Source of the DNA: a virus
Direction: 5' to 3' (one strand)
Virus record (IMG/VR): IMGVR_UViG_3300036770_008702
Span: 19,952 to 83,951 of that record
Length of the DNA stretch: 64,000 bases
Below, piece by piece: positions 10,993 to 64,000 of this stretch (position 1 is the stretch's first letter; each line of letters starts with the position of its first letter). The notes under the pieces are model-generated. The model searched no databases. It saw only the letters and a program-made list of their open reading frames with translations, and had not been told where the DNA came from. The translations under genes were made by a program, and so were the position numbers.

Positions 10993-11202
10993 ATGATGGC
11001 TACGGGTACGGTGAAGTGGTTCAACACGACCAAAGGGTATGGCTTTATCGGCCTCGACACGGGGGGCAAGGACGTATTCGTGCACGTCAGCGCAGTTCAG
11101 AAAGCTGGGCTGCGCACCCTGAACGAGGGTCAGAGGGTCAGCTTTGACGTCGAGCAACAGCCTAACGGCCGATTAGCGGCCGTGAATCTGGGCGCCGAAT
11201 GA
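10993..11202 (+). CDS. Cold-shock (CspA-family) protein
   Basis: A 69-residue single OB-fold nucleic-acid-binding protein. RNP1 (KGYGFIGL) and RNP2 (DVFVHVSAV) are both intact, and the length is the standard CspA size. The start [11 protein letters not shown] is the family N-terminus; a second ATG three bases later is equally possible. AAGGGACGGAAG precedes it. It stands alone after a long leader, as is usual for csp genes whose mRNA folding is temperature-sensitive. Its role as RNA chaperone is inferred from the family. Confidence 0.95.
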
Positions 11203-11321
11203 CCAGCATGGTTGACGCAGGCGTGCAGCAAGGCCGGGAGGATGTGTGCCTTGCGACGGCGCCACAGTACAATAACACAAGGAGACTCGCGCTATACTAT
11301 TTATCAATATAATTCAGATTG

Positions 11322-13430
11322 CTAGGATTTATCAGATATTTTGTGACCAATTCTGCTTTTCAGCGTTACGATAAACGTGGCTCCGTTTTCGTCGTTGGCT
11401 GCCCTGATTTCTCCTCCCATTTCCCAGATCAGCCGTCGTGTGATGGCGAGTCCTAGGCCGGTACCTTCTGTTGCAGACTTGGTTGTCACGAATGGTTCGA
11501 ACAAGCGTGTTAGGACCGTTTCTGGAATCCCGCCACCGTTATCAGAAAAATTGATTTGCACGTCAGCGTTGGATAATCGAGAGACGGATATGCGAATCTG
11601 CCGTTTTGGTCCATATGGTTGTTTGGCAAGTGCATCACGTGAATTCATCAAAATATTAATGAGGGCCTGCTCTAGAGGTAATTTTCGGCCGCGTACAAAA
11701 ATGGCTTCATTGCAGACCTGAAGATCTACATAGATTTGATCTTGTTGGAACGTGTGCTCAAGAATTTCAAGAGAGTCTTGCGATACGAGATTGAGATCAA
11801 TATCTTCAAGTGACAAATCACTATCCGGTGTTCGCGAGAGTTGCCTTAGATTATCAATCAAACGAGCGGCGCGATTCGTCTGATGTTCTATTCTTTGCAG
11901 CCGATGCCTCGCGCTCTCGACATCGCCGTCATCGAGAGCAGCAAGAGCATTGCTTGCTGCGAGCCCGATTGTACCTAATGGCTGTCGTAGTTCATGCACT
12001 AGCCCCGCAGCCATCTCGCCAAGGGATGCGAGTCTCGCGGACGTCAGTGCACGAGCTTCGGCGTCACGACGAGCTGTCACGTCGATGGTATAGCCTACAA
12101 TTTCTGCGCCACCGTCAGGCCAGAGCGTCAATACACGAGCGTAGGTATGCAGTATCCCCCAACTGCCAGAGGGTTGCCGTATGCGCGTTTCGAACGCTAC
12201 CCGTCCTGAGGAAAGAAGCTCGTGGTTATACTCGTCTGGCTTTGGGTCATCCGGATGAACCAGGTCTGTTAGGGAAGAGAGTCTTTCGAGATCACTCGAG
12301 GGCCATCCGAACACACCCTCTATATCACCTCCGCGATATACGCTTCGGACGGTCGTGCCATCTGGCGCAACTTCTCGCAGGAAGATGACCGCGGGCAATC
12401 CATCAAGCAGGCGTTCAACGTCTTTCTGTCCCTCCAACAGCGCTGTCACCTCTCGCCGGGCGTGCCGAACATCTTCACGGCGAAGGATCCAGGCTACCGA
12501 CGCCAGCGTGACGCCAAGCGCAGTGCTGGCCAGTAACAACCACTGGACAGCCTTCCACGCAGCGCCTTGCAAGGACGCCTGGGCCTCGGCGACGGTCACG
12601 GTCCAGCCAGTTGCGACTGACAGACGTTCGACGGCGTAGACATTGTCATTTCCGCTCCAGCCGGGCCCGACGACCAGTGTGCTCTGTCTGTTTCCAATGG
12701 CCTTTCCCACCCACTCTGGCGCTCTGGCGCCAACTCGGCGTCCTGTCGGATCGAAGCTGTGCGCCAGGATCCGGAACTGGCTATCGGCGATCGCGGCGAA
12801 TGTGCCGGGTGGAAGGTTCTGGCTTAGAAGTAGTTCCCTCATTGCAGTCGGTTTCAGTGCCAGCGCCAGCGCTCGGCGGGTTTGACCTGGTCGCTCAACG
12901 GGAACGAGCGCTGCCAACACGAGCCGGTCCGCAACAGCACCAGGAAACAGATCTGAAATCGCCGGACGTGAATGTTGGAATACTTCATCAAGAGCAGGCA
13001 GCAGAGCCTGCTCGTGACCCTTTGGCAAAGCGGAGGGCAGGGGCGTTCCCGGCACGCGGAGGGAGTTAGCTCTCATCATGTAGTCGGGCGGGGGACCGAT
13101 GAGAACGATCCAGCCTCCGAGGCGAGCACCGACGGTGCGTGCACGTTCTTCAAACGCCCCGGCAGCAGCCCCAGAATCGAGCAAATTAGACGTCGCAAGT
13201 GTTTCCAGGGCGCTGACATAACGTCCCAGCTGCGCGTCCACCGCGGAAGCGAGGGCTCGCGCTGTCGACTGCAAGCGCGCTTCATCATTCGATCGGTAAA
13301 GGGTGAGGGTTGTGGAAAGTGAAAGAATTACAAACAAAATGGCTGGAAAGATGGCAAAAGCGCCAACGATTAACCGAAAAATACCAGGGCGCTTAGTTCG
13401 AAATACGGTCACTGCCTCCGCGATCTTCAT
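11322..13430 (-). CDS. Membrane-bound sensor histidine kinase with PAS domain
   Basis: 702 residues. TM1 lies near residues 19-44 (FRLIVGAFAIFPAILFVILS). A periplasmic sensing domain of dCache type follows to about residue 280. TM2 is WLLLASTALGVTLASVAWIL, followed by a cytoplasmic PAS domain. The HisKA region carries the phospho-acceptor in HELRQPLG (H479). The HATPase domain has an N-box (NILMNSRDAL), FSDNGGGI and GTGLGLAI. It should autophosphorylate in response to an extracellular ligand. No response regulator gene is adjacent, so the partner is unknown. The downstream 119 bases (11203-11321) contain no gene. Confidence 0.92.
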   Translation of the reverse strand: MKIAEAVTVFRTKRPGIFRLIVGAFAIFPAILFVILSLSTTLTLYRSNDEARLQSTARALASAVDAQLGRYVSALETLATSNLLDSGAAAGAFEERARTVGARLGGWIVLIGPPPDYMMRANSLRVPGTPLPSALPKGHEQALLPALDEVFQHSRPAISDLFPGAVADRLVLAALVPVERPGQTRRALALALKPTAMRELLLSQNLPPGTFAAIADSQFRILAHSFDPTGRRVGARAPEWVGKAIGNRQSTLVVGPGWSGNDNVYAVERLSVATGWTVTVAEAQASLQGAAWKAVQWLLLASTALGVTLASVAWILRREDVRHARREVTALLEGQKDVERLLDGLPAVIFLREVAPDGTTVRSVYRGGDIEGVFGWPSSDLERLSSLTDLVHPDDPKPDEYNHELLSSGRVAFETRIRQPSGSWGILHTYARVLTLWPDGGAEIVGYTIDVTARRDAEARALTSARLASLGEMAAGLVHELRQPLGTIGLAASNALAALDDGDVESARHRLQRIEHQTNRAARLIDNLRQLSRTPDSDLSLEDIDLNLVSQDSLEILEHTFQQDQIYVDLQVCNEAIFVRGRKLPLEQALINILMNSRDALAKQPYGPKRQIRISVSRLSNADVQINFSDNGGGIPETVLTRLFEPFVTTKSATEGTGLGLAITRRLIWEMGGEIRAANDENGATFIVTLKSRIGHKISDKS

Positions 13431-13494
13431 GGGGCTGAGATGATCCTGGCTGCCTATGGTTTCTTTATAGAGAGTGCAGAATATAAAGGAAACC

Positions 13495-13519
13495 GCATAT
13501 TATATCGTGTGTTATATGC
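13495..13519. promoter_or_regulatory. AT-rich dyad upstream of the histidine kinase
   Basis: GCATAT and ATATGC form the arms of an imperfect 25-base dyad, about 65 bases upstream of the kinase start in an AT-rich patch. It is a possible operator or promoter element. I have no regulator to assign to it. Confidence 0.3.
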
Positions 13520-13700
13520 GTTCCTTGCGTAGTACGCACTCCCGGCATGAAGCACTCAGCATGGTCCGAGGAGATCGGACTTCGGTCGCAACCCGGCAGC
13601 CAAGGCCCAGGCAGCGAAGTCTGCATCGCCTGCTCGGACCGCGGTTGGACCGGTCATCGAGGTTCCGATGGCGACGGCGAGGACGGCCCAGTGCATGGGT

Positions 13701-14774
13701 TCAGGCCGCTTCGGTGCGGTCGGACGCCGCGACGGGGGTCGCGCGGGCGGCGCGGCTGCGGTGGATGCTGCGGACGGTGCCCTGGGGCTTGCCGTTGGCG
13801 GAGAGGAAGGTTCGGCCGATGTATTCGCCCATGACGCCGAGGATCGTCGACTGGATGCCGGTGAGCAGGAGGATGACCGTCATGGTCGAGGCCCAGCCGG
13901 AGGGGCTTTCGCTGCCGAACAGGGCCTCGAAGATGGTGAAGGCGGCGCCGGCCAGGCCGAGGGTTGCCATGGCGATGCCGGCGAGGATGGCTATGCGCAG
14001 GGGGGCGAGCGAGAAAGAGGTGGCGAGGTTCAGCCAGAGGCGGATGAGGCGCTTGACGGTGTAGTTGCTGCGGCCTTCGGCGCGGGGGAGGTGGCGGACC
14101 TCGATGCTGTCGATGCGCTGGGTGACCTCCATGATGAGGCCGTCGATATAGGGGTAGGGGCCGCGGTAGCGGGTGACGCTGCGTACGACGAGGGCGGACA
14201 TGCAGCGGAAGGAGGAGAGGTAGAGGCCCTTCGGCTTGTCGAGCAGCCAGTCGGCGACCTTGTTGGCGAACTGGCTGCCGAGATTGCGCCAGGGGGCGTG
14301 CTTCTTGCTGGCGTAGCGGGTGTAGACGACATCCCAGGTGCCGAGGCGGGCGTGGTCGTAGAGCTTGGTGACTTCCTCGGGCGGGTTCTGCAGGTCGTCG
14401 TCCATGGTGATGACGAAGCGGCCGCGGGCGTGGCGCAGGCCGGTCATGACGGCGTTGTGCTCGCCGTAGTTGCGGGCGTGCTCGATGGCGACGACGGGGA
14501 GCTTGCGGTCGGTGCCGGCGATGGTGGGCGGGTTGGTGGCGAGCGCGCGGCAGACCTCGCCGGAATTGTCGGGGCTGCCGTCGTTGACGAGGATCACCTC
14601 CATGCCGCCCTCGGGACGCAGGGCGGCGAGGGCTGCAACGAGTGTGCCGATGGTCGCCGCGCCGCGATAGACGGGCACGACGACCGATAGGCCGATAAAC
14701 GGGGCGCGAACACGCTCACGAGCGCGGCCTTCGCGACTTAGCGCCTCGGCGGCAGTGAATCCTGCGAGGATCAT
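13701..14774 (-). CDS. Family 2 glycosyltransferase, polyprenyl-phosphate type
   Basis: GT-A glycosyltransferase of the ArnC/DPM1-like group. These transfer a sugar from a nucleotide donor to undecaprenyl phosphate at the inner membrane. Motifs are LSVVVPVYRGA, LVNDGSPDNS, the metal-binding MDDDLQNPPEE, and a C-terminal pair of membrane helices (IAILAGIAMATLGLAGAAF and a second near residues 297-320). The 357-residue length is slightly long because of an N-terminal tail of ~28 residues. The start has no clear ribosome-binding site and the true start may lie closer to LSVVVPV. The sugar and pathway (O-antigen, lipid A or exopolysaccharide) cannot be told from this gene alone. Confidence 0.9.
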   Translation of the reverse strand: MILAGFTAAEALSREGRARERVRAPFIGLSVVVPVYRGAATIGTLVAALAALRPEGGMEVILVNDGSPDNSGEVCRALATNPPTIAGTDRKLPVVAIEHARNYGEHNAVMTGLRHARGRFVITMDDDLQNPPEEVTKLYDHARLGTWDVVYTRYASKKHAPWRNLGSQFANKVADWLLDKPKGLYLSSFRCMSALVVRSVTRYRGPYPYIDGLIMEVTQRIDSIEVRHLPRAEGRSNYTVKRLIRLWLNLATSFSLAPLRIAILAGIAMATLGLAGAAFTIFEALFGSESPSGWASTMTVILLLTGIQSTILGVMGEYIGRTFLSANGKPQGTVRSIHRSRAARATPVAASDRTEAA

Positions 14775-57078: not shown

Positions 57079-57306
57079 TCAGGCGGCGCTCATCTCCTTG
57101 CGCTGCGCTTCCTCGAAGCTTTCGATATCGGAAAGGACGTAGGTCACGTGACCGCCGAGTTTGAAATACGGCGGCCCCTTTCCCTCGGAGCGCCACCGCT
57201 CCAGCGTGCGCACCGACACGTCCCAGCGCGTCGCCAGCTGGCGCTGGTTGATGTGCCGCACCGCAGTGCCGTCACACCGGCCGGCCAAGTAATGATGCTT
57301 GCTCAT
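57079..57306 (-). CDS. Small helix-turn-helix (excisionase-like) protein
   Basis: 75 residues from ATG 57306, which overlaps the upstream stop by 4 bases. INQRQLATRWDVSVRTLERWRS is a MerR/AlpA-type helix-turn-helix, followed by a wing (GKGPPYFKLGGHVTY). Such proteins act as excisionases or small regulators of lysogeny. It sits at the head of the recombination operon and could control it or help excision with the serine recombinase. The exact role is inferred. Confidence 0.78.
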   Translation of the reverse strand: MSKHHYLAGRCDGTAVRHINQRQLATRWDVSVRTLERWRSEGKGPPYFKLGGHVTYVLSDIESFEEAQRKEMSAA

Positions 57307-57602
57307 GCCGGGCACCTACCGGCGCGGCTTCCGAAGTGTCGGGGTGCCGAGTTGTACCCCCTGAACCCTGCCGCTTCTCCATGAGATGAGATGATCGAGG
57401 ATGTGCATCGCGCTGCCTCGCGGACGTCGGGCGCGGGCTCGCTGACGTAGATCGCCAGCAGCGGCGTCCCATCGGCATGGGTGCCAGCGTCCTCGATTTG
57501 GTAGTTGCAGTTGGGCTCGCAGACCTCGGTCAGTTCCCAGCGGCGATAGAGTCCTGGAAGACGCCTGAAATCCGCGAGCGACAGATCGGCAGTGCGGTTC
57601 AT
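57303..57602 (-). CDS. Small phage hypothetical protein
   Basis: 99 residues (MNRTADLSLADFRRLPGLYR). The first ~65 residues (including CEPNCNYQIEDAGTHADGTP) have good coding character with two close cysteines. The C-terminal ~30 residues are less convincing. It overlaps the HTH gene by 4 bases and starts about 85 bases after the sigma-like gene. No family is known to me. Confidence 0.55.
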   Translation of the reverse strand: MNRTADLSLADFRRLPGLYRRWELTEVCEPNCNYQIEDAGTHADGTPLLAIYVSEPAPDVREAARCTSSIISSHGEAAGFRGYNSAPRHFGSRAGRCPA

Positions 57603-57686: not shown

Positions 57687-58409
57687 TCAGGGGATTTCCG
57701 CCAGGGCGTCGCGCAGCTTGGGCATCGCGCGCTGGTAGCGCTTGCGGGCGGCGGCCTCGGTCAGGCCCATCTCGACGGCGACCTCGGCCTGCGAGAAACC
57801 CTCGATCGCCACGCGGATCACCAGAAGGGCGTCCGCGCCGATCAGCTTGTGCAGGTCGTCCTGCAGGTGCGCATCTTCCGCCCCGGGCTGTCGCCCCGCC
57901 TGATCGGCGGGCACGTCGTTGATCTCGATATCGCTGGCCAGATCTTCGCAGGCTGCTTCGCGCTTGCGCGCGCGAATCATGTCGCGCTCGACGTTCCGCA
58001 GGACTGAGGCTGCGATCCAGTTGACGCGCCCCAGGTCGAGGCCGCGGACTGCCTCAGTGGTGCGCGCCAGCACGTCGGACGTCATCTCGTTGGCTGTGCC
58101 GATCCTGCGCCAGATCGAGCGGCGCCGGATGGCGTCGAGGCCGGGCCAGAGCGCCAGCAACAGCAGCGTCAGGGCGCAGTCGGACGCGGGTCCGTCGCCC
58201 TGCGCAGCTACGACCAGCGCGGAAAGAATCACGTTCTTCCGGGCCGGATCGCCGGTCGTACGATGCAGCCCGTCAAGAAGGGCCGCTGGATCGCGGAACG
58301 GCGCGAGGGCGGCCTGCGTGCGCCGGACGGCGTCGAAACTACGCTGGAAGTGAAGGCTCGTGGAGGAATGCATGAGGTGATCACGGATCTCGTGCCACGC
58401 GAAGGACAT
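57687..58409 (-). CDS. Sigma-70-like regulatory factor
   Basis: 240 residues (MSFAWHEIRDHLMHSSTSLH). The middle region has RVNWIAASVLRNVERDMIRA, compatible with a sigma region-2-like helix. The C-terminus carries a region-4-type helix-turn-helix: GFSQAEVAVEMGLTEAAARK, then RYQRAMPKLRDAL. It resembles ECF-type sigma factors, although region 2 is weak. In a prophage it may drive late or early transcription. A DNA-binding regulator that is not a true sigma factor remains possible. Confidence 0.72.
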   Translation of the reverse strand: MSFAWHEIRDHLMHSSTSLHFQRSFDAVRRTQAALAPFRDPAALLDGLHRTTGDPARKNVILSALVVAAQGDGPASDCALTLLLLALWPGLDAIRRRSIWRRIGTANEMTSDVLARTTEAVRGLDLGRVNWIAASVLRNVERDMIRARKREAACEDLASDIEINDVPADQAGRQPGAEDAHLQDDLHKLIGADALLVIRVAIEGFSQAEVAVEMGLTEAAARKRYQRAMPKLRDALAEIP

Positions 58410-58505: not shown

Positions 58506-58751
58506 TCAGCGCGCGGGCGCGGTCGCGTTGTTCAGCGTGCTGCAGCCACGGCAGGTGGCCTGAACCGGAAAGCCCACGAGATACTCGTGCCCCCGCGCGA
58601 AGCGCAGGTGCATCCGGCCGTCCCGGCAGACTCCGAGCAGCTTGTCACAGCGCGTGCAGCGCCATTCCGCGTTCAGGGTGGTGGGCTTGGTCGTCGCGGC
58701 GCCGGTCCAGCTCGTCGGGGCTGCCTGGCGCGAGGGGAAGGGAGTCGGCAT
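58506..58751 (-). CDS. Com-like zinc-ribbon protein
   Basis: 81 residues (MPTPFPSRQAAPTSWTGAAT). WRCTRCDKLLGV and ATCRGCSTLNNAT supply two CxxC pairs about 37 residues apart, as in the Com family of Mu, which activates translation of the mom modification gene. No mom gene is visible here. It may regulate another phage gene, and the adjacent 749-residue gene is the closest candidate. Family similarity is good; the role is inferred. Confidence 0.65.
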   Translation of the reverse strand: MPTPFPSRQAAPTSWTGAATTKPTTLNAEWRCTRCDKLLGVCRDGRMHLRFARGHEYLVGFPVQATCRGCSTLNNATAPAR

Positions 58752-58829
58752 GGGAGTGCTCCTCTATGTGGAGCCCCTCCAGTAATCAGCGGTTCGTTAG
58801 ACCGTCTCCCGCTTCATTTTAGACGGCCT

Positions 58830-61079
58830 TTAGACGACGGCCTCGACGGGCGCTTCGACCGGTTCGGGTGCTGGCCGCGGCGCGACGATCAGGCGCCAGT
58901 AGCCGCGCTTCGCCCCCTTTGCGATGTAGAAATCTATGATGTCCTGCCACATCTCCTTGCGGAACGCCTGCTGGGGACTCTTTGCCGAGAAACCCTTCAT
59001 CAGGTCGCCGACGTAAACGTCCGCGGTGCCCGTTGCATACGCGGCGACAAGGCGTTCGAAGATCGTAAGTTGTTCATTTCCAGCGAGGTACAGCGGCTCA
59101 CGGCCGGGAATGTAGAGCGTCCCGGATTGCGTGCTGCTGCGGTCGACACGCGGCGACCCGCCGCCGTGCGCGAGCGAGTGGCTGCTCCGATATGCGAGTT
59201 CCAGGCCGTCGCGGGAGAAGAGCATCTCGTCGTCAGCGGGTGATAGATGTAACAGAAGCGGTACGACCACGTTCGACCCGAGATGCGATGGCATTTCTTC
59301 GCTTGCCGCCAGGATGATCCCGACGCCAGATGTATTCCGGGCTCGCAACATCAAATCCAGCCGCTGTGCAGTTCTTGGGTCATTGATGCGCCTGGCAAAA
59401 TAGACGAGAACGTCGGCATCATCGATCCGCATTGCACCCAGAAGATTCAGGTCCCGGTCGAGGATCTGGGCTGCCCGCTTGTTCAAGATCGGTTTCATCA
59501 GCCGCATGAGCGTCTCTTGAAGCCACTGGCCGTTGATGGCAAACATCTTGATATCCGATACAGGTCGCCTGCCTGCGTCCTGGCCGAACGGCCCCTCCGT
59601 GCGGACCATGCCTGCTGTCGCCGAGGGCTTGATGGTGCCTTCCCCGTCGATGTCGTCGTCCTCGATGAGGACCACATCCTGCCGATCACGGCGCTCGAGC
59701 AGCCCGCCTTCGATAAGACGGCTGGCGTCGAGCCCCAGTTCCAGAAGATACGCGCCGCTGACCTCGTCCTCGACCCGGTCGTAGAGTTGAACTAGCTGGG
59801 GGAATATCGCGCGCAGGTCGTCGGGTGCGATCTGCCGGAATGCGCTGAGAATCCCCCATTCCTTCAGGAGCGCAAAGCCAAGGCTGCGCTCTTCCGGATC
59901 CATCTTACTCTGTAGATTGCAGCTCTTCGTGCCGGCGATCGTGATGTTGATCGTCCGCTCCTTCTCGTCGCCGACGCGATTGTAGGCGACCGCGATCCCG
60001 ATCCGGCTGAACGCCTCGGCGCGCCGAAAGATGTTTCCGGCCCCAAGATACTGGTCCGCCACTTCCTCGATATCGTCGTCAACGGTGACCTTCAGCTGCA
60101 GCTTACGGCGCCAAGTGCCTAGCCGAACCTCGGCTTCCAGAACGCGCGCAAACGCGAGCTGGTAGCCCTCGATCTCGGGAGGCTTCAGAAGGAGCGAAGT
60201 ACGGAACCGGGATAGGTTGTAACGCTTCCAGGTCAATGGCTTCTGAGAGATGTCGTGCCCGAGGGCGATTTCGGCGAACGCGTCGCTGACCGTCTGGCGG
60301 ACCACCGGGCTGTCGGCGCAGACCTCGATCTGGCGCAGCGATGGCGTGTAAATCAGCGTCGCCTCGTTCGGCGGGCGATAGTAGATGGTGTCCCTGCGTC
60401 CGTCATGCCGGTGGTCGTGGACGCTCGATAGCGGCCCGCCATGCCGGACGATTAGCATGATCGATGCAGGGTGCGAGTCGGTGGCCGGCAGATTGAGAGC
60501 CTTCACCTCGCATGAAATCTCCGGTTTCAGCTCAAGCATGTCCTTGATCTTTGTGGCCAGCGCCGCCTCGTCGATTGCCGCAGCATCGAGCGCCATGTGG
60601 TTCTCGAGTTCGACCTCGAAGGCGTCATAGAGCTTGCCATGGTCACGGAACTGCCGGGCGAAATGGAAGCTCTCTGCATCCGCGAAAGTCTTGTACGCGT
60701 TCAAGTAGACCCATATGCTTCTGCATAGCTGATCGGGCTGGCGCTCGAATTGTTCCGATTGGCCGCCATCGAGCCGCTGCTCGACGATCGTCGTAAGGGA
60801 GGTGACGCCTTTGCCGTCCGCGAGAGACCGGATCCTTCGTGCTCGCTGCTCTGCTGGCTGCAGTTCGTCCTGATCGAATTCTGACAGCGTCTGGATGAGT
60901 CTTTGCCTGAACATCTCGACCGCTTTTTTGTCAGAGTGATCAGGCAGGTCCTCGGGCAACTTGAAGTCTGGCTCGTTATCGCCCTCCCGAAAAGCAAGGG
61001 CTGCACGGGCGAGGTCGACGCGCGCATCTTCGATCAGCCTCAGGACATGGGGACCGATCCGATTTGCTTTACGCGCCAT
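58830..61079 (-). CDS. Large protein of unknown family
   Basis: 749 residues (MARKANRIGPHVLRLIEDAR). The first ~160 residues are charged and helical. A beta-rich middle (TIYYRPPNEATLIYTPSLRQ) continues to ~450. The acidic EDDDIDGEGTIKP near 500 is followed by DADVLVYFARRINDPRTAQR and GVGIILAASEEM, which look like a Rossmann-type strand-helix core. The C-terminus (MKGFSAKSPQQAFRKEMWQD) may be a winged helix. I recognise no family, and no signal peptide or membrane helix is seen. GC is slightly lower than in the recombination genes. It lies alone between phage regulators and the recombinase cassette, a place where accessory and defence genes often sit. Confidence 0.8.
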   Translation of the reverse strand: MARKANRIGPHVLRLIEDARVDLARAALAFREGDNEPDFKLPEDLPDHSDKKAVEMFRQRLIQTLSEFDQDELQPAEQRARRIRSLADGKGVTSLTTIVEQRLDGGQSEQFERQPDQLCRSIWVYLNAYKTFADAESFHFARQFRDHGKLYDAFEVELENHMALDAAAIDEAALATKIKDMLELKPEISCEVKALNLPATDSHPASIMLIVRHGGPLSSVHDHRHDGRRDTIYYRPPNEATLIYTPSLRQIEVCADSPVVRQTVSDAFAEIALGHDISQKPLTWKRYNLSRFRTSLLLKPPEIEGYQLAFARVLEAEVRLGTWRRKLQLKVTVDDDIEEVADQYLGAGNIFRRAEAFSRIGIAVAYNRVGDEKERTINITIAGTKSCNLQSKMDPEERSLGFALLKEWGILSAFRQIAPDDLRAIFPQLVQLYDRVEDEVSGAYLLELGLDASRLIEGGLLERRDRQDVVLIEDDDIDGEGTIKPSATAGMVRTEGPFGQDAGRRPVSDIKMFAINGQWLQETLMRLMKPILNKRAAQILDRDLNLLGAMRIDDADVLVYFARRINDPRTAQRLDLMLRARNTSGVGIILAASEEMPSHLGSNVVVPLLLHLSPADDEMLFSRDGLELAYRSSHSLAHGGGSPRVDRSSTQSGTLYIPGREPLYLAGNEQLTIFERLVAAYATGTADVYVGDLMKGFSAKSPQQAFRKEMWQDIIDFYIAKGAKRGYWRLIVAPRPAPEPVEAPVEAVV

Positions 61080-61271
61080 TGATTCACCGCAACGAACAAC
61101 TGATCAGGATTGATTCAACCCAAAATAATCATGGACGATGGGATTCGGTGCAAGATCGGATTTTCTGCCCTCGTTCGCAATTTAGAGAGTCGCCGTCGTT
61201 GGATGTCCCGTCTCAAGCCCCTGGGTGGCTTTTGATCGGTAACGACATCACCGAACACGCCCAACCGAGCC

Positions 61272-61490
61272 ATGAATCGCTCCAGCCCGCCCACCACCGG
61301 TCCCCATCTCCCACCGCACCTCCGCGAGGTCTGCGCCATCCTGGCCGCCGGCCTGCTGCGGCTGCGCAGCCGCAGCGCCGAGGAATGTGCCCGTGACGCC
61401 GCGGAGACCGGGGACCACGGAGAGTTTCGCCTACACTACGTGCCCCACCAGCGCGGTCATGCAACCCGGACCAACCGGAGAGACGCATGA
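61272..61490 (+). CDS. Small conserved protein at head of recombinase cassette
   Basis: 72 residues (MNRSSPPTTGPHLPPHLREV). LREVCAILAAGLLRLRSRSA is a conserved helix found in small proteins that precede DUF2924 genes. The stop overlaps the DUF2924 start by 4 bases (ATGA). It opens a cassette of four overlapping plus-strand genes. The 192-base gap before it is the likely promoter region. Function is unknown. Confidence 0.7.
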   Translation: MNRSSPPTTGPHLPPHLREVCAILAAGLLRLRSRSAEECARDAAETGDHGEFRLHYVPHQRGHATRTNRRDA

Positions 61491-61999
61491 CCAGACTGGC
61501 CAAACCCAAGGGCGCCGCGGCCACCGCCGCGCCCACCACGTTCCCCGCCATCCCGCCTGCCGACGTGCTGGGGCGCCTGGCGGCCCTGAAGACCGCGCCC
61601 GCCGCCGAGTTGCAGGCGCAGTGGCGAGAGCTCTTCGGCAAGGAGGCACCGCCGCACAACCGGACCTTCCTGCAGAGTCGACTGGCATACCGGGTGCAGG
61701 AGCTCGCTTACGGCGGGTTGAAGCCCGAGACGCTGCGGCGGCTCGAGGCGTTGGGCGAGCAGCTGGATGGCGGTAACCCGGTGCTGCGGCGGATCCGGGT
61801 CGACGACAAGCCGGTCACCGGCACGAAGCTGGTGCGGAACCACCAGGGGGTCGAGCACACCGTGACCGTGCTGGTCGACGGGTATTCCTGGGAAGGCCGC
61901 CCCTACAAGTCGCTGTCGGCCATCGCGCGCGCCATCACCGGCACGCGCTGGAATGGCTGGACGTTTTTCGGGATTGCGAACCGGCGGGGGTCAGCATGA
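61487..61999 (+). CDS. DUF2924 protein
   Basis: 170 residues (MTRLAKPKGAAATAAPTTFP). Residues ~25-165 form DUF2924, with LQSRLAYRVQELAYGGLKPE, then KLVRNHQGVEHTVTVLVDGY and the terminal ITGTRWNGWTFFGI. In alphaproteobacteria this family sits immediately upstream of large serine recombinase genes, as here, with 4-base overlaps on both sides. It may be a recombination directionality or accessory factor. That role is a guess from its linkage. Confidence 0.9.
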   Translation: MTRLAKPKGAAATAAPTTFPAIPPADVLGRLAALKTAPAAELQAQWRELFGKEAPPHNRTFLQSRLAYRVQELAYGGLKPETLRRLEALGEQLDGGNPVLRRIRVDDKPVTGTKLVRNHQGVEHTVTVLVDGYSWEGRPYKSLSAIARAITGTRWNGWTFFGIANRRGSA

Positions 62000-63345
62000 G
62001 CCGGAAATCTGGACTTCCCGCCGGTGGGAAGTCGACGGCAGCACCGCCTGTCCGTAAGGTCCGCTGCGCCGTCTACACCCGAAAATCCACAGACGAGGGG
62101 CTGGAGAAGGAATTCAACAGCCTGGACGCCCAGCGCGAGTCATGTGAGGCGTACATCGCCAGTCAGCGCACGGAGGGCTGGGTGCTGGTGCCCGACTACT
62201 ACGACGATGGCGGCATCTCCGGTGGCACGCTGGAGCGCCCGGCCCTGCAGCGCCTGCTGCGAGACATCGAGGCCGGCTTGGTCGACGTCGTGGCTGTCAA
62301 CAAGATTGACAGGCTGTCGCGTTCGCTGATGGATTTCGCCAAGCTGGTCGAGACCTTCGACGCCCACAACGTCACCTTCGTTTCGGTCACGCAGTCTTTC
62401 AACACGACGACCAGCATGGGCCGGTTGACGCTGAACATCCTGCTCAGCTTTGCTCAGTACGAACGCGAGATTATTGGCGAGCGGGTGCGCGACAAGATTG
62501 CGGCGTCCAAGGCGCGGGGCATGTGGATGGGTGGGCCAGTCCCGCTTGGCTACGACGTCCGCGACCGCAAGCTGGTAGTGAACGAGGTGGAAGCCGCGAC
62601 GGTGCGGCGCGTGTTCGATGCCTTCGCCACGATCGGTTCCGCCACGCAGCTAGTGCCGGCGCTGCGTGCCGAGGGCCTGCTGACCAAGATGGGGCGGCCG
62701 TTCGACAAGGGGGCGATCTACAAGACGCTGAGCCTTCGTACCTATCTCGGCGTCGTGACGCACCAGGGGAAGGTCTACCCTGGCGAGCACCAGGCGATCG
62801 TGCCGCAGGACCTGTGGGACCGGGCGCACGACATCATGCGGGAGAGCCCGCGCGTCCGCGCCAACGAGGCCCGCCGCCAGACACCGGCGCTGCTCCGCGG
62901 ATTGATCTTCGGGCCGGACGGCAGGGCGCTGTCGCCAACGCACACCCGTCGCAGGGGCAAGCTCTACACCTACTATGTGAGCCAGGCCGTGCTGAAGGGC
63001 ACCGACGACGGCGGTACGGTCCGCCGCATCTCGGCGGGCGAGATCGAGGCCGCAGTGATGGACCAGGTGCGGGCGCTGCTCTGCCAACCGGAGGTGGTGA
63101 TCGGCACGTGGCGCGCCGCGCAGGCCGAGGCGCCAGACCTGACCGCGGCTGAGACGCGCGTGGCACTGGAGCAGCTTGACCCGCTGTGGGACGAGTTGTT
63201 CCCCGCCGAGCAGGCGCGGATCGTGCGGAGCCTGGTCGAGCGTGTGGACATCAGCCCCGCGGGCGCCGACATTCGGTTACGGCTGGATGGCCTGGCCGGC
63301 TTGGTGCGCGATCTGCGGGCATCCCCCGTGCGCGAGGCCGCCTGA
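61996..63345 (+). CDS. Large serine recombinase
   Basis: 449 residues. Catalytic domain: VYTRKSTDEG with nucleophile S31, then LDAQRESCEAYIASQ and NKIDRLSRSLMDFAKLVETF. The recombinase domain follows (GPVPLGYDVRDRKLVVNEVE and FDKGAIYKTLSLRTYLG), then a zinc-ribbon-like and coiled-coil C-terminal region. It catalyses site-specific integration or excision through a Ser-DNA link. The start overlaps the DUF2924 stop by 4 bases. It is the only complete recombinase near the prophage, so it may be the integrase, but the cassette also occurs apart from phages. Confidence 0.93.
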   Translation: MSRKSGLPAGGKSTAAPPVRKVRCAVYTRKSTDEGLEKEFNSLDAQRESCEAYIASQRTEGWVLVPDYYDDGGISGGTLERPALQRLLRDIEAGLVDVVAVNKIDRLSRSLMDFAKLVETFDAHNVTFVSVTQSFNTTTSMGRLTLNILLSFAQYEREIIGERVRDKIAASKARGMWMGGPVPLGYDVRDRKLVVNEVEAATVRRVFDAFATIGSATQLVPALRAEGLLTKMGRPFDKGAIYKTLSLRTYLGVVTHQGKVYPGEHQAIVPQDLWDRAHDIMRESPRVRANEARRQTPALLRGLIFGPDGRALSPTHTRRRGKLYTYYVSQAVLKGTDDGGTVRRISAGEIEAAVMDQVRALLCQPEVVIGTWRAAQAEAPDLTAAETRVALEQLDPLWDELFPAEQARIVRSLVERVDISPAGADIRLRLDGLAGLVRDLRASPVREAA

Positions 63346-63722
63346 TGTCCGTCAGCATCACGGTGCGGGTGCCGGTCACCATCAGGAAGCGCGGCGGGCG
63401 GCGGCTGGTCGTGGCGCCCGATGGCGCACCCTGGTCGGCGCCGCGTGCACGAATCGACAACACGCTGGTCAAGGCATTGGCACGCGCCCACCGGTGGAAG
63501 AAGATGCTGGACGACGGCCGCTACGGGACGGTCACGGAACTGGCGGCGGGGGAGAAGCTGGATCGCGGCTACCTCGGCAAGATCCTGATGCTGACGCTGC
63601 TGGCGCCGGACATCGTGGAGGCGATCCTGGACGGGAGGCAGCCGGCCGAACTCGGGGTCCATGTGCTTCGGGAGGGGTTTCCGGTGGAATGGGGGGAGCA
63701 GAGGGCCAATCTGGTCGCCTGA
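63345..63722 (+). CDS. Helix-turn-helix-type protein after the recombinase
   Basis: 125 residues from ATG 63345 (MSVSITVRVPVTIRKRGGRR), overlapping the recombinase stop by one base. The C-terminal half, VTELAAGEKLDRGYLGKILM and LTLLAPDIVEAILDGRQP, is a helix-turn-helix seen in proteins encoded next to such recombinases. The N-terminal half is basic with strand-like segments. It probably binds DNA and assists the recombinase. The four-gene order matches a conserved cassette. Confidence 0.8.
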   Translation: MSVSITVRVPVTIRKRGGRRLVVAPDGAPWSAPRARIDNTLVKALARAHRWKKMLDDGRYGTVTELAAGEKLDRGYLGKILMLTLLAPDIVEAILDGRQPAELGVHVLREGFPVEWGEQRANLVA

Positions 63723-63787
63723 CGATATGTTGGATGGCGATAGGCATTGGGGGCGCTGCAATCTGCCCCGGGCGGGTAGGGCCAGTC

Positions 63788-64000
63788 GAGACGAATGGCG
63801 TCATAGAGAGGTTCTTCCGGACGATGAAGGAGCAGGCCATCCACGGCCGCGTCTTCCAGACCATCGACGAGGTCCGCGACGCTGTCCGCGCCTTCGCGGC
63901 CCGCTACAACGCCAAGTGCCTGATCGAGAAGAACGGCTACCTCAGCCCACTCGCCGCTCGCGCCGGTCGCATCGACACGACCCGACGGCACGCTGCATAG
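63788..64000 (+). pseudogene. 3' fragment of an IS3/rve-type transposase
   Basis: About 70 codons ending at the last base of the window: ETNGVIERFFRTMKEQAIHG, a DEVRDAVRAFAARYNAKCLI stretch and the tail. This is the C-terminal end of an IS3/rve-type integrase, including the final catalytic Glu region (NGVIERFFRTMKE). No start, N-terminal domain or first catalytic residues precede it. It begins 65 bases after the recombinase cassette. A degenerate copy of the same tail occurs at 15694-15801. Confidence 0.75.

Follow-up and report, generated by a model that had tools for sequence, protein, structure and literature searches.

A core gene of a serine-integrase temperate phage lineage exchanged together with type-specific repeat arrays: a candidate early-gene control protein setting the immunity type

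The 749-aa gene at positions 58830–61079 of the analyzed stretch of DNA (hereinafter, the window, which is the last 64 kb of the virus record G000, 83,951 bases) represents a family that is a core gene of a serine-integrase temperate phage lineage. The family is divided into discrete types, which are exchanged as cassettes and are accompanied by type-specific arrays of direct repeats confined to the gap between the family gene and the com gene. In addition, the N-terminal half of the protein resembles a known fold, and split two-gene relatives are located beside classical lysogeny regulators. That each type has its own matched repeat sites suggests that these are phage on/off-switch proteins of a kind not recognised before. 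Based on sequence comparisons, the family protein most likely controls the early genes via its own array and would thus set the immunity type of the phage.

The gene was described as intact and well formed in the first-pass annotation, and this was confirmed: it is encoded on the minus strand, starts with ATG and specifies 749 aa. Its annotated location, between the cassette of the DUF2924 protein, serine recombinase and small protein and the early genes, was confirmed as well. The features considered below are as follows (window coordinates).

58830–61079, minus strand: 749-aa gene, family type T1 (open reading frame list; ATG start, intact, 749 codons)
59841–61079, minus strand: N-half, residues 1–413 (AlphaFold2 model; a gene of its own in split relatives; profile match 99.9%)
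58830–59840, minus strand: C-half, residues 414–749 (model; a gene of its own in split relatives; profile match 99.8%)
59640–59840, minus strand: first winged-helix-like region, residues ~414–480 (weak VIA match to the MarR-family SarS, Z 6.5, 74 residues aligned)
58884–59084, minus strand: C-terminal winged-helix-like domain, residues ~666–732 (weak VIA match to the APC2 winged helix, Z 5.3)
58828–58835, minus strand: operator-like copy 1 (GTCTAAAG), overlapping the stop codon of the 749-aa gene
58817–58824, minus strand: operator-like copy 2 (GTCTAAAA), 11 bp beyond copy 1
58795–58802, minus strand: operator-like copy 3 (GTCTAACG), 22 bp beyond copy 2
58752–58829, minus strand: gap between the 749-aa gene and com, with type-specific sequence
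58506–58751, minus strand: Com-like 81-aa gene, directly downstream of the 749-aa gene (open reading frame list; conserved across types)
57687–58409, minus strand: sigma-70 region 4-like 240-aa gene (family searches in Pfam and PHROGs)
57079–57315, minus strand: HTH_17 gene, with which the common early genes begin (family searches)
61080–61271, no strand assigned: upstream leader, which in some types (T4) belongs to the exchanged cassette; common to T1 and T6
61487–61999, plus strand: DUF2924 protein of the recombinase cassette (Pfam)
61996–63345, plus strand: large serine recombinase (family searches)
63345–63722, plus strand: small recombinase-associated protein (family searches)

To the left of the 749-aa gene, on the same strand, com, the sigma-like gene, a 99-aa gene and the HTH_17 gene are followed by genes of an AAA_24 ATPase, a helicase and a D5-type primase. 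To the right, on the plus strand, the DUF2924, large serine recombinase and small protein genes are located. The GC content of the 749-aa gene is below that of much of the phage. The name of the Com-like gene originates from the first-pass annotation, and no family match supporting it was found in Pfam and PHROGs.

Several other elements were noted in this region. A block CAAAAGCCAC..GGGACA (on the strand of the gene; window 61200–61245) is conserved across types upstream of the family gene and adjoins a small gp5-like ORF of the opposite strand; it is perhaps the promoter of the recombinase operon. A sigma-70 promoter was not found. A short inverted repeat GGCTCC..GGAGC (window 58752–58790) overlaps, by eye, the likely com ribosome site in most gaps. 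The translation of positions 63750–64000 resembles the C-terminal portion of IS3-type transposases, and the recombinase cassette may therefore adjoin an insertion sequence.

Searches of Pfam, NCBIfam, PADLOC and PDB sequences gave no name for the 749-aa protein. PHROGs gave only phrog_37634 (function unknown), matching residues 57–411, and the BFVD match W6AT81 (E 2e-4) carries no name. Four further family members and a fused fragment had no useful Pfam match, except for peptidase M15 in the fragment. In the Roseicitreum antarcticum plasmid pRA01 (L014, 11992–13254), T1 residues 1–267 continue into a peptidase M15-like stretch, representing a truncated or fused copy. In the literature outside subscription journals, searched by title and start of the abstract, neither the family nor the arrays are described. 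Among isolated phages (tblastn, 50,697 records), AcaML1 alone has a relative (gp6, 25% identity, three records). Full-length relatives with identity of up to 85% were found in other viral contigs and bacterial genomes; together with the 241 typed members, they indicate that the gene is conserved far beyond chance.

The occupancy of the locus was assessed in a sample searched with the sigma-like and Com-like genes and, therefore, not picked by the family gene. All 65 distinct com loci that extend 2.7 kb upstream have the family gene directly before com, and this slot is never vacant and never taken by another kind of gene. A family member is also held by 178 of 178 loci with both flanks, a count that includes repeated contigs and gene-chosen loci. 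Its presence in every distinct com locus makes the family gene a core gene of the lineage and not optional cargo. The first-pass annotation would have been contradicted by homologues that are mainly core phage genes of known function in replication or packaging; the gene is indeed core, and no such known role was found in these searches.

Typing of the 241 full-length members (134 distinct proteins) by single linkage at 60% yielded nine types, where the counts refer to loci, some of them sharing a contig: T1 (107, including the window), T2 (51, including AcaML1), T3 (33), T4 (17), T5 (15), T6 (11), T7 (4), T8 (2), and T9 (1). Mean identity is 79–100% within types and 23–45% between types, the exception being the T1–T9 pair (mean 54%, maximum 58%). 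Between the main types, the identity of the flanking genes rises to 93–100%. In the best cross-type pairs, it is 100% for com, the sigma-like gene, the 99-aa gene and DUF2924, and 98% for the recombinase; for T1 and T3–T6, the best pairs show 96–100% in com, 94–100% in the sigma-like gene and 93–98% in the recombinase. The small types T7–T9 have lower flank identity with some partners.

The borders of the exchanged cassette can be seen at the nucleotide level. Homology of at least 700 bp at 93% on both sides of the cassette was found in 104 cross-type locus pairs (93–95% identical flanks). The flanks of L021 (T1) and L249 (T4) are ~94% identical; the homology ends 190 bp short of the family gene's start and resumes 65 bp past its stop. 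In the T3 locus L184, homology with T1 persists for 77 bp into the T1 gene, after which its own gene begins; in T3 loci, this relic still reads, by eye, like the T1 N-terminus. The upstream leaders of T1 and T6 are 93–96% identical and, since the leader is common to both types, a type-specific operator in it is not supported.

Type-specific sequences are present at the other end of the gene. The gap between the family gene and com is 67–122 bp long, with length and sequence typical of the type. In 96 distinct protein/gap sets, which were also used for motif counts, the gaps (minus their final 30 bp) share 82.7% identity when of one type and 53.3% when of different types, and 0 of 2000 label shuffles were as extreme. 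The com–sigma gap does not co-vary with type, its identity being 89.9% within and 91.4% across types. At least two copies of the T1 motif CGGTCTAACA were found in 43 of 50 T1 gaps and 0 of 46 others, of the T3 motif GGCTCCGAT in 18 of 19 T3 gaps and 0 of 77 others, and of the T5 motif GTCGATGATT in 7 of 7 T5 gaps and 0 of 89 others; the motifs of T4 (TCTCC) and T6 (TCTAG) are shorter.

The typical array consists of three direct copies with spacings of 11 and 22–23 bp. With motif cores selected from the gaps themselves, spacing 11+22 was observed in 36 of 45 T1 gaps, and 11+23 in 14 of 17 T3, 7 of 8 T4 and 5 of 5 T5 gaps. A separate spacing test against shuffles and other spacings, which tried all of 9–15 and 17–28 bp, gave 11 with 22 or 23 as the best spacing in 43/45 T1, 17/17 T3, 7/8 T4 and 5/5 T5 gaps, and also in T7 and T8. 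By the triple test alone, the T6 and T9 arrays are not significant (p 0.1 and 0.09, respectively); T6 gaps contain two copies of their own motif and one T1 copy.

The arrays are confined to this location. In the 64 kb of the window, only three GTCTAAMR matches exist, at 58828, 58817 and 58795 (GTCTAA; 58795–58835), and the triple array has p 0.0006 by shuffling. Of the 47 triple arrays present in 84 loci (1098 kb), 46 fall in the gene–com gap. By type, 42 of 51 T1 cases have the T1 triple where the gene ends, compared with 0 of 45 cases of other types. Scanning of all viral contigs with the T1-triple pattern found 110 stretches; among the 80 listed, 38 are at the end of a family gene, 2 at com with the family gene undetected at the array, and 40 elsewhere, while all 35 listed stretches with a readable adjacent family gene adjoin T1. 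The 40 listed triples away from the family are, by eye, mostly unbroken 11-bp tandem repeats of other phages; unbroken 11-bp GTCTAA tandem repeats of this kind were seen in L382, L386, L400 and other viral contigs without the family.

Type T2, comprising 51 of the 241 members, differs from this pattern. A clear array is absent from the two regions tested in eight loci, with isolated low p values (0.007 in L103; 0.03–0.06 after the gene in five loci), and the locus scan detected no array near the module. Given this and the opposite gene orientation in T2, the array scheme is not universal in the family. In L013 (6799–7837) and other T2 loci, AcaML1-type modules start with an HTH_17 gene, weakly matched by PADLOC mad1, and a gene for a PIN_3 protein; this pair before the T2 family gene is possibly a toxin–antitoxin pair.

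Thus, type-specific operator-like sites at the early genes, as expected for an immunity repressor, are present in the fused types except T2, those of T6 and T9 being weak. Since com, the sigma-like gene and other neighbours do not vary with the motif and the family gene is the only gene in the exchanged cassette, its product is the natural candidate for the reader of the type's motif. The gap could have travelled with the gene through physical linkage alone, which leaves the repeats unexplained.

The AlphaFold2 model of the 749-aa protein (45 alignment rows, mean pLDDT 82.9) shows a helical N-terminus (residues 10–147), a beta-rich middle (151–382) and a winged-helix-like end (668–730). These three elements agree with the domain layout proposed in the first-pass annotation. 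The Rossmann-like core proposed there around GVGIILAASEEM did not stand: this sequence lies in a small alpha/beta region of the model, and neither Foldseek nor VIA pointed to a Rossmann fold.

The N-half (residues ~75–413) is modelled like CENP-N/CENP-L and RdgC. In the PDB, Foldseek ranked Chl4/CENP-N and RdgC highest, with no match below E 0.001. VIA gave CENP-N with Z 9.1 (177–181 residues, rmsd 4.7–5.1), RdgC (2owy) with Z 8.4 (211 residues aligned, rmsd 8.9), CENP-L/Iml3 with Z about 7 and RnlA with Z about 6, where Z near 8 can reflect a common arrangement. In favour of the match, CENP-N, CENP-L and RdgC share one fold (excerpt of PMC4080450), and lambda RexA has this RdgC/CENP-N-type fold as well (RdgC, IML3/CHL4; excerpt of PMC11077077). 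RexA is absent among the 50 structural matches listed for the N-half by Foldseek and VIA. At the sequence level, RdgC (PF04381) gave no Pfam match to the 749-aa protein and an hhalign probability of 0.1%, and the hhalign probability against three RexA sequences was also 0.1%. The net charge of the N-half is not positive.

As for the C-half, its model (pLDDT 82.0) matched winged helices weakly at each end (SarS, Z 6.5, and APC2, Z 5.3), and Foldseek gave no matches. Pfam detected no PF00486 match at the C-terminus of the 749-aa protein itself. A nuclease assignment of the C-half was rejected, as the VIA match to Can2 (Z 5.9 over 156 residues) is too weak to propose it.

A search for split relatives covered 398 genomes of one phylum, 27 of which had a match. 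Many matches consist of two adjacent genes encoding ~390–415 aa and ~310–340 aa, which show profile matches of 99.9% and 99.8% to the N- and C-halves of the fused protein, respectively; the split N and C proteins are unrelated to each other (hhalign 0.2%). The recombinase cassette is present in the fetched stretch of 13 of 15 split loci. A lysogeny-type regulator adjoins the split module in 12 of the 15 loci: XRE and/or ImmA/IrrE in L323, L324, L326, L327, L328, L332 and L333, LexA/S24 in L329, L330 and L335, and WYL in L325 and L334, none being seen beside the module in L331, L336 and L337. In L330 and L335, LexA/S24 is upstream of the N gene, giving the order repressor-N-C, with LexA and the N-gene start overlapping in L330. 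A GGDEF/EAL/PAS signalling protein (11178–14240) is encoded between the WYL regulator and the split module of L325.

Phased repeats of 11–12 bp between the module and the next gene were detected in six of the 15 split loci (L324, L326, L328, L330, L332, L337; p below 1/300), and the test gave p 0.023 for L335. L326 and L327 contain up to 12 copies each at 12-bp steps, those of L327 being located beside its ImmA gene. The second split gene of L336 ends in PF00486 (Trans_reg_C, the OmpR/PhoB winged helix). With a separate regulator present in the split types, the module cannot act as their sole repressor.

Classical repressors were also searched for in 22 fused-form records (42–84 kb; 19 of T1 and T3–T8, three of T2) using the HTH_3, S24, M78 and WYL families. 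In these records, which are perhaps fragments, HTH_3 was found in 2 of 22, WYL in 2 of 22, and S24 and M78 in 0 of 22 each; 18 of 22 have none of the four families. The record of the window has no HTH_3 and no S24 match, and Pfam detected no CI, LexA, XRE, ImmA or WYL domain in the 749-aa protein.

Taken together, these data make it reasonably probable that the family protein is a sequence-specific DNA-binding protein that controls lysogeny or the early operon through cognate operators and sets the immunity type; we infer the binding, the direction of regulation and the immunity. The winged-helix-like parts of the C-half would bind the type-specific direct-repeat array, the copies of which are separated by approximately one and two helical turns (11 and 22–23 bp), between the gene's own stop codon and com, the head of the com–sigma–early genes. 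The N-half, with the RexA/RdgC/CENP-N fold, may keep the subunits together on DNA, and the bound protein would switch the early genes off or on. A phage that acquires a different gene and array together, as a single cassette, would thereby switch its immunity (compatibility) type. According to an excerpt of PMC4832192, OmpR/PhoB-family proteins bind 7-bp direct repeats with a 4-bp spacer (11-bp period) as tandem dimers, and also three or four in a row; this was counted in favour of a control protein because the period is the same and the split relative L336 ends in PF00486.

A more far-reaching version, which we offer tentatively, is that the lineage may have replaced a CI/LexA/XRE repressor with a fused master switch combining the RexA/RdgC/CENP-N fold and winged helices on a phased three-site array, forming mutually exclusive protein/operator immunity groups that move as cassettes, with an ancestral two-gene form still working beside a classical repressor.

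Other roles of the protein were also considered. It seems unlikely that it is a replication initiator, in which case the arrays would be phage-origin iterons and the types would resemble plasmid incompatibility groups or lambdoid O/ori types. In line with this role, direct iterated sites adjoin the gene for the presumed binder, with up to a dozen copies in L326 and L327, the downstream operon is a replication/recombination module, and two winged-helix-like regions are present in the family protein, as two winged-helix regions are in plasmid Rep proteins. However, the fused types have just three copies, close before com, no AT-rich element was found within 600 bp (median lowest 50-bp GC 0.46–0.48 vs. 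locus GC 0.61–0.66), and no Rep or O family match was obtained. Even less likely is a RexA-like exclusion or switch-biasing protein, in which the RdgC-type fold binds DNA non-specifically and the C-half is a fused partner in RexB's place. The resemblance of the N-half to the fold shared with RexA and the repressor-N-C order in L330 and L335, similar to cI-rexA-rexB, speak for it, whereas type-linked arrays are unexpected for a non-specific binder, the profile match to RexA or RdgC is absent, and RexA is not among the structural matches listed. In addition, rex is dispensable in lambda, whereas the family slot is never without its gene.

An accessory anti-phage defence protein diversified through an arms race, close to the single-gene defence system proposed in the first-pass annotation, appears highly improbable: discrete alleles exchanged at a fixed slot and the lowered GC content would fit it, but PADLOC-DB 2.0.0 gave no match for the 749-aa protein, three other types and the split halves, the gene is never replaced in the distinct com loci, unlike accessory defence cargo, and the arrays would be left unexplained. 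We likewise give very little credence to a role in the serine-integrase prophage as recombination directionality factor or in partition. The gene adjoins the recombinase cassette in the fused types, the cassette accompanies most split loci, and a CENP-N-like fold with iterated sites recalls a centromere; however, no partition gene was seen among the named neighbours, and the family gene does not track the recombinase, since the recombinases of different types can be as much as 98% identical. Of the two roles proposed in the first-pass annotation, lysogenic control is supported by the position in the lysogeny region, the type-specific operator-like sites and the split relatives beside classical regulators, and holds up better than defence, which is not supported.

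If the proposed control role is correct, it would provide a testable mechanism for a widespread unannotated family (phrog_37634 and relatives) and natural matched sets of proteins and DNA sites for studying the evolution of immunity specificity. It would also tie the RexA/RdgC/kinetochore fold to sequence-specific control, and the cross-immunity of these prophages would be predictable from DNA alone.

In comparison with known systems, gp6 of Acidithiobacillus phage AcaML1 (annotated only as hypothetical) is 25% identical, belongs to type T2 and lies beside the same recombinase cassette; it differs in its opposite orientation to the recombinase, in its HTH_17 and PIN_3 neighbours and in having no clear array. 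The inner kinetochore proteins CENP-N/Chl4 and CENP-L/Iml3 are the best structural matches of the N-half, but they are eukaryotic, no PDB sequence match exists, and a common fold shows no function. RdgC (PF04381) resembles the N-half in fold, whereas the family gene is a phage gene with an extra C-half and no profile match to RdgC. Lambda RexA is similar in the apparent fold class of the N-half, in its position in the lysogeny region and in the repressor-N-C order of some split loci; the family differs from it in having no sequence-profile similarity, a winged-helix-like C-half instead of RexA's membrane partner, and type-specific arrays. The 11-bp direct-repeat period and PF00486 in L336 are shared with OmpR/PhoB winged-helix proteins (excerpt of PMC4832192), although a receiver domain was not seen in the family. 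In excerpts of PMC6550527 and PMC9283540, Cluster A mycobacteriophages are described as having repressors with stoperators and specificity types among related phages, and one phage immunity repressor as employing two DNA-binding domains. Unlike the Cluster A stoperators, the sites of the family are direct repeats at a single place, and repression is here a proposal. The family protein further differs from phage immunity repressors in its length of 749 aa, in the RdgC/CENP-N-like N-half and in having no CI/LexA/XRE match; like them, it forms specificity types among related phages, each with its own DNA sites.
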